Shown piece after piece: positions 14,856-20,586 of a stretch of 64,000 nucleotides of DNA (within the stretch, counting starts at the first letter, position 1; the number at the start of each line of letters is the position of its first letter). The DNA comes from Onthophagus taurus. Taxonomy: Eukaryota; Arthropoda; Insecta; Coleoptera; Scarabaeidae. The notes under the pieces were generated by a model. The model worked only from the letters and a program-made list of their open reading frames with translations. It was not told where the DNA came from and ran no database searches. The translations under genes were made by a program, and so were the position numbers. Location of the stretch: assembly GCF_036711975.1 (NCBI RefSeq), contig NC_091971.1, positions 29,891,501 through 29,955,500 of the forward strand, given 5' to 3'.

Positions 14856-15230
14856 ATTCGGTTTTAGTTTCTGATCCAAATTGATTAATACGTTTACTAT
14901 AAGCTGATCGGCCATGCAAACAACTATACATTGTACAAAGTGTTCAGCTTTTACACATACCACATAAAACTGTGATAGCGACTTGACATGCGGAAAATGT
15001 AAGGGCAATCACCACACAACGAAATGAAATTCGCAACTACAATAAACATGCCTAGTATGTGATAAAGACCGATGTCATGGTTGTTAATGATGGTCTTTCA
15101 AATGCAAAAAAAACTTCTCAAACCATTACCGAATTTATTGAAGACACAATCACAAGGAATTCCATAATACACAAATCTATTTCAACTCACGATTATTGAA
15201 TAGATACGTATATGCACGAAATTAATAAAT

Positions 15231-15790
15231 CTAAAACCTCGACAGGCAAGAGTTAATTGAAAGACTAAAAATAAGATATAGGGTACAATTTAACATAGAT
15301 ACTTTTGTTCGCTTGATATCTTCTTGGTACTTGACGCACTCTGTGGAGTTGGCCGTGTGGTTACTTCCGCAGTTGGTGCAGGATATCGGTTTGCCGTTTT
15401 TGCGTGTTATTTCGCAATCGGCGGTTTTATGGCTCCCTGTGCACTTAACACATTTGGGGGCCGCGAAACAGTTTGCAGTGGCATGGCCCCATAGTTGGCA
15501 ATTTTTGCATTGGATTATTGCTTTCTTGTTACGGATGTTTTTCCAGAATACCCTCGTATTGAAGAGGTACCTGGCTTCTTGTTGGAGCTTTGTGATGTTT
15601 ATGATGTTGGTGATTGTCACCAGATACTTTGGTTGTGTCGATCCTTTCATTCTGAAGGATTTTGTGGCTTTAATCTGGTAAAGGTCTTGTAGTTCTTTGA
15701 CGATGTCTTCCATGTAAATTTGATTGGGAAGGTCGCTGAGGACGAAATGCTCATTCAGCTTTTGGAGTGTAGGTGTGGGACGCGGTTTTT
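15231..15790 (-). pseudogene. Jockey-type LINE ORF1 (zinc-knuckle Gag-like)
   Basis: The open frame (ATG at 15713; homologous residues extend upstream through LNEHFVLSDLPNQIY to about 15770) ends in three cysteine clusters: CKNCQLWGHATANC, CVKCTGSHKTADC and CTNCGSNHTANSTEC. This triple CCHC arrangement is typical of Jockey-clade ORF1, an RNA-binding protein of the retrotransposition particle. The frame runs into unrelated residues after about residue 140, and no ORF2 follows, so this is a 3'-deleted copy. The long plus-strand frames opposite it are shadows. Confidence 0.7.
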
Positions 15791-16166
15791 TCGCGTCTTA
15801 AGGAATTTATAAGAGTATGTCTCTTTCGGGGTTTGTATCATCGATGTGGATGAGTACGGCCGGAAACGTGCGTTTTTTGGTGGGGTTTGCGGGGTTACGG
15901 GTATTGGGGTTTGCTGTTATTGTTTTTTGTTGGAGATAGAAACAGGTAGTGTCTTTATCACTGGGAGGAAGACTCGGCCGGGTCTTTGTTCGCGCACGTG
16001 TTCCTTTCGGGCACTATTGTTCTTTGTTTGGAGTGATTTTTACGCGTTCTAAATGTCACGTAGGCACTTTGGGTACATGCAAGCTTCCTCTGGAGTTCTG
16101 AGAATTCTGCTCAGACCGGAGCGGTTTTTGGTACCATGCGAACACTTCAGGGATTCGGGGTGGAAT

Positions 16167-16190
16167 CCGCGTGGCAGGAACCACCGATGC
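16167..16190 (-). pseudogene. tRNA-Gly scrap with internal deletion
   Basis: CCGCGTGGCAG joins directly to GAACCACCGATGC. Compared with the array consensus, 17 bases spanning the anticodon stem and D-arm are missing. The 5' side of this scrap runs into the LINE-like DNA at about 16160. The normal 83-base spacer follows, so it is the broken first unit of the array. Confidence 0.55.
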
Positions 16191-16273
16191 TGATGATTCA
16201 TGCCTTTCTAGGTAGCTAGATCGAGCATAATGATAACTTAGTTAATAACAAAAATATCAAAAGAAAAATGGAA

Positions 16274-16339
16274 TGCATCGGCCGGGAATCGAACCCGGAT
16301 CGCCCGCGTGGCAGGCGAGCATTCTACCATTGAACCACC
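16274..16339 (-). pseudogene. tRNA-Gly(GCC) copy A, interrupted by LINE
   Basis: It carries the discriminator through tRNA position 6, including anticodon GCC, but the first five bases are separated by the LINE insert at 16340-17437. The remaining 5' end (positions 1-16, with the 11-bp duplication) lies at 17438-17453. Confidence 0.85.
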
Positions 16340-17437
16340 TATTAGCATTGTTAGAACCCCTATTAGCGACTACCAACATGTACTGAAAAAATATAAAGTA
16401 ACGGATATCGAGGCGACCGACGAAGCTGATAGAAGAAAAGCTCCTCAAACAATAATAAAGGCGATCTATGAGCAGAGTGACAGTGATAGAAAGGAAATAT
16501 GGGCAAAATCAATGTTTTACCCTAAACTAGTAATGAAATATCATAATAAAATTTCCTTCCCGGCCAGTCAATATAAACAGCTAGATTCGTCAAAGCTGAG
16601 TCTACTCAACGCCGCAGCAGAAGAACAATGGTTCGCAATGAGGGGAATTTCGAAACAAAATGGAGGCATTTACAGGAGATGTCATAACCACGAAGAAACA
16701 GCTTACCATGTAGTAACGGCCTGCAAACATAACTACTCCGAGCGACATGATTTCGTGGCATACTGGCTAATAAGAACCATCATCGAAGCAACGAAGGCGC
16801 CAGTACTTATCAAAAATCAACTCAAATTTGGAAGAGCTAATTTGAACTGTGAATATACGACTCAGGACAAAAAAATATATATAACGTGTGGCATTCCGGT
16901 TCTGACTCTACAACCCATCCATCACAAAAAGCCGGATATATTGGTGAGGGTCGAAAAAGAAGACAAAACAACCATCTACGTCTTCGAAGTGGTGATACCT
17001 CATCTCCTGAACTACGAAACTCAGGAAGCCGTGAAAATCACAAGGTATGCAAAAAATTCCGTAACTCATCTCGACCATTTAAATTACAGCACTGTGGGTC
17101 GGGATGCACACCTGCTAGATGAGCTACGTCAGATGAACCGTTGTCCAGTAAAGTTTGGGGTTATGGCGATGGGGGTTTTTGGCGAGGTGCTGTCAACTGA
17201 CACACAAAAGAAGCCGTAGTCATTGTTGGCCGAAATAGGTGCAACAGAAATGCAAATAAGGTCCCTGTTGGAAAAAGCTGCCTACAGCGCATTGACTGGA
17301 ACAGCCAGGATCTTAATGAAACACGTTGGAAAGCAGGAAGAAGAACAATGAGAAGTACCATCATCGTGTCAATATCTGTGATATGTATAAATTATTATTA
17401 TATTATGTCGTAGTAGTTGTATATAGCGAATAAATGT
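16340..17437 (+). mobile_element. RLE-type (R2-like) LINE, 5'-truncated, in tRNA-Gly
   Basis: The 1098-bp insert is bounded by the 11-bp direct repeat ATTGAACCACC (16329-16339 and 17438-17448), which corresponds to tRNA-Gly positions 6-16 (A-box region). The plus strand encodes the C-terminal half of an RLE LINE. There is no poly(A) tail; the 3' UTR ends in a TATTATTATATTATG-rich stretch and GCGAATAAATGT. The 5' start is internal to the ORF, as expected from truncated target-primed reverse transcription. Its tRNA host is on the opposite strand. Confidence 0.8.
16350..17219 (+). pseudogene. RLE LINE C-terminus: CCHC + restriction-like endonuclease
   Basis: The open frame runs through the 5' junction and ends at TAG 17219. 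Central CRRCHNHEETAYHVV..C..RHD-type residues (C-x2-C-x8-H-x4-C) match the zinc motif after the RT in R2-group LINEs. About 75 residues later, KPDILVRVEKEDKTTIYVFE fits the PD-x-(D/E) core of the restriction-like endonuclease, followed by VIPHLLN. No RT motifs remain. The frame itself is uninterrupted over about 290 codons, which points to a fairly recent insertion. Confidence 0.7.
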
Positions 17438-17536
17438 ATTGAACCACCAATGCTGATGATTCATGCTTTTCTACGTAGCTAGATCGAGCATAATGATAAC
17501 CTAGTTAATAACAAAGAAATCAAAAGAAAAATGGAA

Positions 17537-17607
17537 TGCATCGGCCGGGAATCGAACCCGGATCGCCCGCGTGGCAGGCGAGCATTCTACCATTGATCCA
17601 CCAATGC
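17537..17607 (-). tRNA. tRNA-Gly(GCC), copy B, variant 5' end
   Basis: Anticodon GCC and T-arm are consensus. The D-arm reads GGATCAATGG rather than GGTTCAATGG, and the acceptor starts GCATTGG, leaving one G-U pair. A TTTTT terminator lies 5 bases after the 3' end on the minus strand. It may function, but the A-box change is a concern. It borders the LINE insert unit. Confidence 0.65.
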
Positions 17608-17690
17608 TGATGATTCATGTCTTTCTAGGTAGCTAGATCGAGCATAATAATAACCTAGTTAATAACAAAAAAATCAAAAGAAAAATGGAA

Positions 17691-17761
17691 TGCATCGGCC
17701 GGGAATCGAACCCGGATCGCCCGCGTGGCAGGCGAGCATTCTACCATTGAACCACCGATGC
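17691..17761 (-). tRNA. tRNA-Gly(GCC), copy C, intact
   Basis: The acceptor GCATCGG pairs with CCGATGC. The anticodon loop is CTGCCAC (anticodon GCC), the T-arm CCGGG-TTCGATT-CCCGG is perfect, and the discriminator is A. No intron. A TTTTT Pol III terminator follows within six bases (TTCCATTTTTC). It matches the array consensus exactly. Confidence 0.9.
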
Positions 17762-17843
17762 TGATGATTCATGCCTTTCTAGGTAGCTAGATCGGGCATA
17801 ATGATAAGCTAGTTAATACAAAGAAATCAAAAGAAAAATGGAA

Positions 17844-17914
17844 TGCATCGGCCGGGAATCGAAACCGGATCGCCCGCGGGGCAGGCGAGCATTCTACCAT
17901 TGAACCACCGATGC
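17844..17914 (-). pseudogene. tRNA-Gly copy D, probably inactive
   Basis: Anticodon GCC is kept, but position 37 is C instead of A (loop CTGCCCC), and the T-stem has a mismatch (CCGGT against CCCGG). The 5' half and terminator are consensus. Confidence 0.7.
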
Positions 17915-17997
17915 TGATGATTCATGCCTTTCTAGGTAGCTAGGTCGGGCATAATGATAACCTAGTTAATAACAAAGAAATCAAAAGAAAAATGGAA

Positions 17998-18068
17998 TGC
18001 ATCGGCCGGGAATCGAACCCGGATCGCCCGCGTGGCAGGCGAGCATTCTACCATTGAACCACCGATGC
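17998..18068 (-). tRNA. tRNA-Gly(GCC), copy E, intact
   Basis: Identical to copy C across all 71 bases: paired acceptor, GCC anticodon, perfect T-arm, A discriminator, nearby TTTTT terminator. Confidence 0.9.
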
Positions 18069-18151
18069 TGATGATTCATGCCTTTCTAGGTAGCTAGATC
18101 GGGCATAATGATAACCTAGTTAATAACAAAGAAATCAAAAGAAAAATGGAA

Positions 18152-18222
18152 TGCATCGGCGGGGAATCGAACCCGGATCGCCCGCGTGGCGGGCGAGCAT
18201 TCTACCATTGAACCACCGATGC
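18152..18222 (-). pseudogene. tRNA-Gly copy F, probably inactive
   Basis: The universally conserved U33 is C here (loop CCGCCAC), and the T-stem 3' strand carries a C change (CCCCGCC instead of CCCGGCC). Both would impair folding and decoding. Confidence 0.7.
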
Positions 18223-18304
18223 TGATGATTCATGCCTTTCTAGGTAGCTAGATCGGGCATAATGATAACCTAGTTAATACAAAGAAATCAAAAGAAAAAT
18301 GGAA

Positions 18305-18375
18305 TGCATTGGCCGGGAATTGTACCCGGATCGCCCGCGTGGCAGCCGAGCATTCTACCATTGAACCACCGATGC
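18305..18375 (-). pseudogene. tRNA-Gly copy G, probably inactive
   Basis: Three changes: an acceptor 3' strand mismatch (CCAATGC), a T-loop changed to GGTACAATT, and an anticodon-stem mismatch (TCGGCTGCC). The spacer is normal. Confidence 0.7.
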
Positions 18376-18457
18376 TGATGATTCATGCCTTTCTAGGTAG
18401 CTAGATCGAGTATAATGATAACCTAGTTAATAACAAAGAAATCAAAAGAAAATGGAT

Positions 18458-18523
18458 TGCATCGGCCGGGAATCGAACTCGGATCGCCCGCGTGGCAGGC
18501 GAGCATTCTACCATTGAACCACC
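18458..18523 (-). pseudogene. tRNA-Gly(GCC) copy H, interrupted by LINE 5' end
   Basis: Consensus except for one T-stem change, down to ...ATTGAACCACC at 18513-18523. Foreign DNA then starts (TACGGTTAAG), at the same tRNA position as the insertion in copy A. The missing 5' end of the tRNA is not found downstream in this window. Confidence 0.8.
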
Positions 18524-19513
18524 TACGGTTAAGACACGCTTTTTGGTCGCTCGTGAAATTTTCGCGATTTGTGCTGAACTCGTGTCCTTTGGAAGAAACT
18601 ACGTTATTAAAGTTTTTTAAAAAAAAAATATTAAAATAGAAAATAAACGTACTCATAGTTCCCTACGTGCTCAGAAGAGTGTAAATTAAGTGAGTGTGCC
18701 CGCAAAAATGGCGACGTGGAAGAAAGCCGAACTGCAAATAGTTGAAAATTATTTGGAAACATTCCCGGCAGAAGCAGTTGAAGCCACCACTAAAGAAAAT
18801 ATATCCAGGTTAATGCCACAGCTAACTGGAAGATCCGCCGCAGCTATAAAAAAGAAGGTAACTCAATTAAAATTAAAACAACCTGCAACGGAAAATGCCG
18901 CCCCCCCCGAAACACCACGCGAAGACCCACCCGCGCAGAAACCGGGTTCAGTAAAATGGACAGAGGAAGAGACGGAGCGGCTTATACAGTCCTTCAGTGC
19001 GCAGGACCCAAAAATCCGATGGAAAACCGGCTAAGGAAGGAATGCCCTCTTGTTTACAACGCAACAGCTGGAAACATCGAAGAAAGACGTAAAGCGTTGG
19101 AAAAACAACGCGAACAACATCAACCCCCGAGAATAGAACCACATCAACCACAACCGAAGCCGGAAGTGACACCGGAATTATTAAATTCGCAGTCCGAAGC
19201 GCCGGAACCACCTGTGTTGTTAAATCCACAACCAGAACCGGTGGAACTCTCGGAACCACTGGATCCGGAACTACAAAAACAATTCGAAAAGGTGCTTGCT
19301 CTGGTATGTACTATAAACCGCCCTAAAAAATTATATAAGTTCAATTCCTCATATCAAAACATGTGGATACCAAAGATTAACGCAACATTACACCAAATAA
19401 TACTAAATTTTAATACATGTATTAAAGGCCCTGTTAATAGGCACAATAATATAAAAAAAGCTATTTTGGCAGCTGGTTTCGTTACAGCATCCAATGCTGT
19501 AATGAGATTTTAG
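18524..19513 (+). mobile_element. 5' part of an R2-like LINE at the tRNA-Gly site
   Basis: This begins exactly after ATTGAACCACC of tRNA copy H, in the same orientation as the LINE in copy A. A 184-base leader precedes an ORF with two Myb/SANT-like segments, the N-terminal plan of R2-group LINEs. No RT is recognisable downstream, so the copy is deleted or rearranged after about 19513. That it is the same family as the insert at 16340 is inference from the shared site and complementary halves. Confidence 0.6.
18708..19513 (+). pseudogene. LINE N-terminus with two Myb-like domains
   Basis: It starts at the ATG at 18708 (MATWKKAEL). Residues about 1-60 (AELQIVENYLE...LTGRSAAAIKKKVTQLK) form a SANT/Myb-like helix set. 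A proline-rich linker follows, then VKWTEEETERLIQSF, a canonical Myb start. A frameshift near 19005 moves the rest to another frame (RLRKECPLVYNATAGNIEER, completing the Myb), followed by a long P/E/Q-rich linker to a TAG at 19511-19513. In R2, Myb domains read the target DNA. Confidence 0.65.
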
Positions 19514-20225
19514 TAACATTTTATGGAACCAGCTCAAGTTGGTGACATTGGGTCATTAAGTTTTCTAGTTGTCAATGTGACAATGTTTGTCTATGGATGT
19601 TTAAACACGTTCTTAGCATCGAATACAAAGTCCACAATGATGAGGACATGGAACTCTGAGCAATTTCTCTTATTTTGGGAGGTGTACATGAAACATTTTT
19701 GTCAGGTGAATACATTTTATGTTTTGACAGTTTCTAATTGTCAACTCAATTTTCTATTTTCAAGTGTTACGGTGTTATCAACTGCTACATATGTACCTAT
19801 TTCCCTACATTGTCAAAATGTATTTTATTTTTGAGAATAAAAAAAGGATAAAAACGCGAATTACAAAAAATAGCATAAAAAACACGTTTCATACGATTCA
19901 TTAAAAACATGACATCTTTATTGGGTTTGTCCTGCTATTGCTCCCCGATATCAATAAATAAATAAATTTGCTATTGGTTTCACCACTGCAACTGTTTGTC
20001 CAAATAGATTCCAAAGAATATAAGAGGAGATCAAAAAAAAAATCTCTCTCTCTGTCTCTAGATCGTTAAGTCTTTTCACTAACACTAAGATTTGCCTCTG
20101 AAATATTTCCTGAGCAATTTTTTGCCATCTGTCTCTCCATTTCTTTGGTGGTTTAGTGCAGGACTTGCTATTTGTAAGCATAATTTTCGATAGTCTCTTA
20201 GCCGGCATTATACGGACGTGATTGT
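19514..20225. other. Unassigned stretch after the LINE 5' fragment
   Basis: Short open frames (19523-19834 plus; 19951-20208 minus, containing PPKKWRDRWQKIAQEIFQRQ) without recognisable domains. The latter could be LINE-derived. No downstream tRNA flank is seen. Confidence 0.25.
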
Positions 20226-20229
20226 ATTA

Positions 20230-20480
20230 AAATTCCATTGGTTACTGATATCGCAATTCTCGGTCCCATCTAATTGTAAGTCTTCCTGAGATAGTCTTCA
20301 GGTGCTTCATGTCTGCTACTCATTATCTTCTATTTTTGTTCTCTCAGTTTTATTTGTGGCTCACATATTTCTATGCCGTAAGTCTTTATTGGAGGAACGC
20401 AGGTCTTGCACTTTACTATCCATTCGCATGTTATAAATCCAACCTAAAATTGCGTACGCTTTGCTGATCTGACTTCTTAA
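20230..20480 (-). pseudogene. LINE tail fragment
   Basis: The minus strand reads VPPIKTYGIEICEP and then MKHLKTISGRLTIRWDREL in shifting frames. This corresponds to the post-RT P-TYG-E-W / LRRI-G region of the LINE family also seen at 2440-2683. It is heavily decayed. Confidence 0.45.
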
Positions 20481-20586
20481 GTCCTTTGTCGTTACTGTTT
20501 GAGATGTGCACATCCAAGTAGGAAATTCTACGACTTGTTCGAAGCGACTGTTGTTAACTACCAGACATGTTCAAAACTTCGCTTGC

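Follow-up and report, generated by a model that had tools for sequence, protein, structure and literature searches.

A rare family of long interspersed nuclear elements (LINEs) very probably inserts at one exact nucleotide inside tRNA-Gly genes of the beetle Onthophagus taurus. We analyzed a stretch of 64,000 nucleotides (the window, C6:29891501-29955500 of a 290.8-Mb genome, C6 being contig NC_091971.1), which holds two partial copies of the element, insert A and insert H, in a tandem array of tRNA-Gly(GCC) genes. Repeated insertion at a single tRNA-gene nucleotide is indicated by three things: all three readable 3' ends in the genome lie at the same tRNA-Gly nucleotide, the 5' junctions of A and H lie at one and the same tRNA-Gly nucleotide, and the elements are less diverged from one another than are the spacers of the arrays that carry them. 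The exact 3' junction, in which GCGAATAAATGT meets ATTGAACC, occurs three times in the 290.8 Mb, in insert A and in two further copies, L011 and L012, and is at tRNA-Gly in all of them; the other three of the six copies have lost their 3' ends. Near matches to the 3'-end pattern with up to three mismatches number 29, against 23 for the reversed pattern. Three mismatches are present at 24 places, no tRNA was found at the one-mismatch place (L034) or the two-mismatch place (L035), and L034, the near match whose sequence was read, looks like an ordinary gene.

Two insertions in a tandem array of tRNA-Gly genes

ARAGORN finds eight tRNA-Gly(GCC) genes in the window, every one on the minus strand, and the LINE lies antisense to the tRNA-Gly gene. 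Insert A opens the first unit of the array and insert H opens the last; what ARAGORN reports at 16275-16343 is the gene that insert A interrupts, extended a few bases into the insert. On the opposite strand, ATTGAACCACC corresponds to tRNA-Gly nt 6-16; the fixed junction has nt 16 on one side and nt 17 on the other. By this numbering the putative cut falls in the D-loop region, which we take to be the A-box. The features are as follows, in window coordinates.

16178..18528, minus strand: tandem tRNA-Gly(GCC) array of 154-bp units, the target
16274..16339, minus strand: tRNA-Gly gene interrupted by insert A; this side retains nt 6-71
16329..16339, plus strand: target-site duplication, upstream copy, ATTGAACCACC
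16340..17437, plus strand: insert A, 1098 bp, 5'-truncated LINE copy with the end of the reverse transcriptase (RT) linker, CCHC, restriction-like endonuclease (RLE) and 3' untranslated region (UTR)
16344..17219, plus strand: open frame of insert A, 291 aa, ending at a premature TAG (17217-17219) that is TGG in L011 and L012
16671..16724, plus strand: position of the CCHC knuckle, degenerate in insert A (YRRC-X8-H-X4-C)
16929..17048, plus strand: predicted RLE core of insert A, KPD...E...KITRY (residue roles after PMC5678591)
17352..17437, plus strand: 3' UTR of insert A, ending in ...AATAAATGT without a poly(A) tail (end of frame taken from L011)
17438..17448, plus strand: target-site duplication, downstream copy, ATTGAACCACC
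17438-17453: nt 1-16 of the tRNA gene that insert A interrupts
18513..18523, plus strand: ATTGAACCACC at the 5' junction of insert H
18524..19480, plus strand: insert H, 5' end of the LINE family, its 3' side cut by another repeat
18708..19031, plus strand: N-terminal open frame of insert H, 108 aa, with possible Myb-like segments
19040..19480, plus strand: coding region of insert H continued in another frame, its end homologous to a piece of L012 that runs into the RT

An earlier sequence-only reading of this DNA had described both insertions, and most of that description holds. Insert A starts directly after ATTGAACCACC inside the tRNA-Gly gene and has an exact 11-bp duplication, which sets tRNA nt 1-5 apart from the rest of the gene; the array arithmetic is exact (unit spacing 1263 = 154 + 1098 + 11), and the lack of poly(A) is borne out by the 3' UTR. 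Insert H likewise begins right after ATTGAACCACC, at 18524, inside a tRNA-Gly(GCC) gene. Its end had been placed at 19513 and lies at ~19480, a common repeat occupying the sequence from there on, and the range given for the pair, 16274-18720, stops within insert H. Apart from A and H, the window contains no more pieces of the LINE family. An Rfam scan of window positions 15000-20500 gave tRNA alone above the cut-off, and an HDV-like ribozyme was absent from the 15 Rfam matches with E <= 1 in that interval.

The start of insert A has a feature of its own. Its first bases (16340-16366) are TATTAGCATTGTT, and TATTAGC comes again ~20 nt downstream, as if the 5' end had been copied twice; L011 starts otherwise.

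Copies in the genome

The genome contains at least six copies or fragments of the family: insert A, insert H, L011 (C6:19.64 Mb, 2.2 kb, 5'-truncated within the RT), L012 (C6:28.33 Mb), an older family fragment joined to the 5' side of L012, and L013 (C3:2.62 Mb, 5'-truncated and with its 3' end lost). The genome was queried with insert A, insert H, the RT region of another copy, and RT and endonuclease proteins; copy counts are lower bounds, the best 40 of 557 candidates having been scored for insert H and 141 of 337 in one protein search. L012 contains, in order, H nt 518-957, an RT and the sequence of A, with a single 416-aa open frame running from the H part into the RT. Because H-type sequence, RT and A-type sequence stand in this order in one copy, A and H are evidently the 3' and 5' ends of one LINE family. 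The sequence-only reading had proposed a search for just such a copy, as a guard against the two pieces belonging to unrelated families, and L012 joins both.

None of the copies found is intact. The reading frame of L012 is broken in the RT and once more later, and L011 carries frame breaks as well. Differences at codon positions 1/2/3 number 11/9/15, 12/9/11 and 11/4/7 in the three pairs among A, L011 and L012; since this is without the third-position excess expected from selection on the protein, the three copies seem to have drifted. At L012:6025 the older family fragment, broken at about nt 755 of A, runs straight into nt 518 of H in the L012 copy, the result of either a template jump or a later deletion.

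The supply of targets is small. A census with a 41-base pattern (up to three mismatches) gave 34 tRNA-Gly gene ends in 290.8 Mb, so the family appears to live on a very small target. Of these, 31 run on to an intact 5' end (up to one mismatch), and the remaining three are the genes opened by insert A, by insert H and, at L011, by an unrelated repeat. This last insert (L011:5870-6560, C6:19.644 Mb) is 682 bp long with a (TTTGAA)n-like tail; it sits in another tRNA-Gly gene a few bases from the family's site, in the opposite orientation and with ACCATTGAACCA at each end. Elsewhere in the genome it has nine matches, none of them at a listed tRNA-Gly gene.

Independence and precision of the insertions

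The insertions look independent, a conclusion that we consider well supported by sequence comparison although not proven. The stronger argument is that the 5' ends of A, L011 and L012 all differ and that the duplications are separate: L011 has its 5' junction in the same tRNA-Gly gene's flank, with a duplication of ~30 bp (by eye), which, being longer, leaves the upstream tRNA gene whole (ARAGORN call L011:5390-5460). The second argument is divergence. The three pairs among A, L011 and L012 differ at 33/1085, 33/1020 and 29/1020 sites of the element (~3%) and at 10/84, 9/84 and 9/84 sites of the spacer (11-12%; Fisher p = 0.0006, 0.003 and 0.0015), whereas equal divergence of element and flank would be expected had the copies spread with duplicated arrays; the spacer comparison is no clean clock, as tandem arrays exchange sequence, which can inflate spacer differences.

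Besides this caveat, several points weigh against insertion at one nucleotide by an RLE LINE. The copies are few: six were found, of which three keep a 3' end. The 5' end is not at tRNA-Gly in three cases out of six (L012, the older fragment and L013): L012 joins the older fragment, the older fragment starts in other sequence, and L013 on C3 begins in other sequence, close to an intact tRNA-Gly gene but outside it. The distance is ~1.5 kb from the BLAST-supported part or ~250 bp from a short RT-like stretch recognized by eye, and this nearness proves nothing for or against targeting. The fold of the endonuclease was not confirmed (the predicted fold has a pLDDT of 33), and the frame of insert A, compared with the PDB by sequence, gave no match at E <= 5. 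The sequence-only reading would have been refuted by most genomic copies lying outside tRNA-Gly genes; every readable 3' end (3/3) is in one.

What is observed is a fixed 3' junction, duplications, truncations and the order RT, CCHC, RLE in the protein. We infer target-primed reverse transcription because the 3' end is fixed without poly(A), the 5' end is variable and the duplication is short; nicking, priming and recognition of the DNA by the element's own protein would then proceed as follows. The endonuclease would nick the tRNA gene on its RNA-like strand, between nt 16 and 17 (GCATCGGTGGTTCAAT^GG), and the 3' end so freed would serve as primer for copying the element RNA, starting at its ...AAUAAAUGU end. 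The second strand would be cut afterwards between tRNA nt 5 and 6, 11 nt off in A and H, which would leave nt 6-16 duplicated in A, and copying that stopped early would produce 5'-truncated inserts such as A.

It is also conceivable that the target is set by bound RNA polymerase III factors, as in the TRE elements of Dictyostelium, and not by the tRNA-Gly DNA sequence; the cut lies in the presumed A-box, a transcription-factor site. We consider this unlikely, since elements guided by host factors, according to PMC3706591, insert at a distance and not at one in-gene position, whereas here the in-gene position is exact, and each of the three 3' ends is in tRNA-Gly. Instead, duplication and unequal exchange in the tRNA array could have multiplied a single ancient insertion along with it, in which case the repeated site was inherited and not targeted. 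All copies with a tRNA-Gly junction are indeed on C6, in arrays of related 154-bp units, but this account is very unlikely in view of the different 5' ends, the copies' own duplications (an exact one of 11 bp in A, ~30 bp in L011), the excess of spacer over element divergence, and the fact that A and H have unrelated starts in different units of one array. That the LINE is loosely specific and tRNA-Gly arrays are a mere insertion hotspot is hardly credible: the unrelated LINE-like repeat in the L011 gene and the C3 copy outside a tRNA gene would fit it, but three of three readable 3' ends share a nucleotide although only 34 such gene ends were found in 290.8 Mb, and sister families B and C, described below, lack a tRNA gene at those 3' ends that were scanned.

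The encoded protein

Its domain order identifies the protein as that of an RLE-type non-long-terminal-repeat element, with an R2-related RT, a CCHC motif after the RT and a predicted PD-(D/E)-K core, in that order. The RT half of L012 matches Pfam RVT_1 (E = 5.8e-14), and its best PDB matches among all chains are R2 proteins; a profile of nine RT sequences finds R2 chains at 4.9e-44 to 1.8e-26 and LINE-1 ORF2 chains at 2.2e-19 or weaker. Searched by sequence against the PDB, L012's N-terminal RT half had no match at E <= 1. A weak Pfam match of the RT piece to Prp8 (0.0007, below the cut-off) is in keeping with the subject of PMC5678591.

The CCHC motif that the sequence-only reading placed after the RT is a feature of the family, in which CX2CX8HX4C is present in L011, L012 and P0066 (with CRxC kept; P0066 is a protein relative introduced below) and in L013 too, and agrees with the CX2-3CX7-8HX4C reported for LINEs in PMC5678591; in copy A itself the first Cys is a Tyr. 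A PD-type endonuclease had also been proposed, and the predicted core is there, as KPD...E...KITRY in A and L012, with KRTKY in sister family B and KYVRY in P0066. The form KPD...E...KxxRY agrees with the LINE RLE core, whose K, according to the same paper, is in KX2KY with a less conserved second K; ours would be the first K.

Relatives and sister families

One protein was found at E <= 0.001 with the frame of insert A: P0066, from an ENA contig of 1859 bp, with 58% identity over 99% of that frame (E = 7.6e-104). This family or a close one therefore exists elsewhere. Within the same genome, sister families B (L069, L072, L075) and C (L070, L071, L073) have 40-44% RT identity. ARAGORN found no tRNA in L069-L074, and L075, outside that scan, had its sequence read. 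The readable 3' flanks of B (three) and C (two) differ from copy to copy, bar ATCTGGGA, which stands at the junction in two of the three B flanks (L072:787-798, L069:488-495). Left out of these counts are L074 (no RLE match) and L070 (C), L076 and L077 (B), which have no usable 3' end. The L072 flank reads TAGTATCTG, which we take to be a stretch of U2, the small nuclear RNA (snRNA) target of Utopia. Junctions of LINEs at U2-like sequence are described in PMC4640811. No U2 match lies near a family B or C copy among the 10 matches listed, from a search in which 46 of 25,311 candidates were scored and fragments could be missed.

An RT tree of 25 rows, made with 18 of the 66 proteins returned, unrooted and with one long row (P0001), unites the tRNA-Gly family, family B and the protein P0003 (99/99) and sets them off from three R2 rows (R2 100/99) and, at 100/99, from 17 other hits. 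These 17 we take to be R4-like on the strength of their motifs. The sequence-only reading had assigned the element to the R2 group; it belongs to that group in the wide sense of RLE LINEs and is not R2 itself, its RT standing outside the R2 rows and its three readable 3' ends being at tRNA-Gly, not 28S. A tentative and rather doubtful possibility is that the tRNA-Gly family, B and P0003, placed by the tree, together with C and P0066, left out of the tree and placed by similarity only, make up a deep branch of RLE LINEs as yet undescribed, one of whose families has become strictly specific for the tRNA-Gly A-box, with sisters in the same genome that insert elsewhere. If so, it would offer a natural comparison for what in the protein sets the target. 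The sister families are without a recognizable tRNA at the 3' ends scanned, which makes the change of target a testable question.

Comparison with known site-specific elements

RLE LINEs that enter tRNA genes are already known, NeSL-1_TV (TV presumably standing for Trichomonas vaginalis) being one. PMC4640811 lists NeSL-1_TV as specific for tRNA-Pro and two planarian families, LIN15_SM and LIN25_SM, for tRNA-Arg and tRNA-Glu. Compared by description only, all three resemble the present family as RLE LINEs specific for a tRNA gene and differ in the tRNA gene and the host. The sequence-only reading knew of no described element at this site. For tRNA-Gly this stands, in that no LINE specific for it was named in the literature searched at the level of titles and beginnings of abstracts, with few subscription papers covered; the published tRNA-Pro, tRNA-Arg and tRNA-Glu elements make the finding less novel. 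tRNA-Gly is thus a new target for a kind of element already published, and joins the few tRNA genes known to serve LINEs as precise insertion sites. In practice, RLE LINEs of the site-specific sort are of interest as a means of putting DNA in a chosen place.

R2 shares with the family a related RT, CCHC then RLE after the RT, a precise 3' junction and a variable 5' end, but targets the 28S rRNA gene, falls in a separate RT group and has FADD/YADD where the tRNA-Gly family has YMDD. Of the hits that we regard as R4/Dong-like, those whose sequences were read share MDD(I/L)K and YK(Y/H)LG(I/L) with it; their RT group is apart (100/99), and the target of the tRNA-Gly family is neither rDNA nor a microsatellite. 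Target duplications form in all known R4 elements, according to PMC3636483, and are common to those elements and this family. Utopia is likewise an RLE LINE in a small RNA gene (U2 snRNA), with a precise 3' and a variable 5' boundary; it has one to three N-terminal zinc fingers, whereas none was seen by eye in insert H, and the listed U2 matches are not near the tRNA-Gly family. The Dada DNA transposons also use a fixed site in tRNA genes, some in the A-box and some in tRNA-Gly, but are DDE transposons with 6-7-bp duplications and no RT (PMC3706591, PMC8869645).

The N terminus and the end of insert H

The two Myb-like domains that the sequence-only reading saw in insert H have weak support: Pfam gave a single Myb match, 13 residues long, at E = 0.0088 and below the curated cut-off. 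A single-sequence fold of the H N terminus (pLDDT 60) gave 56 PDB matches at E <= 10, none of them at E <= 0.001. At its other end, insert H is cut by a common repeat with a palindromic start (window 19479-19620). The first ~37 bases of this repeat are found in at least 39 other places, and the homology extends past them in the eight loci compared.

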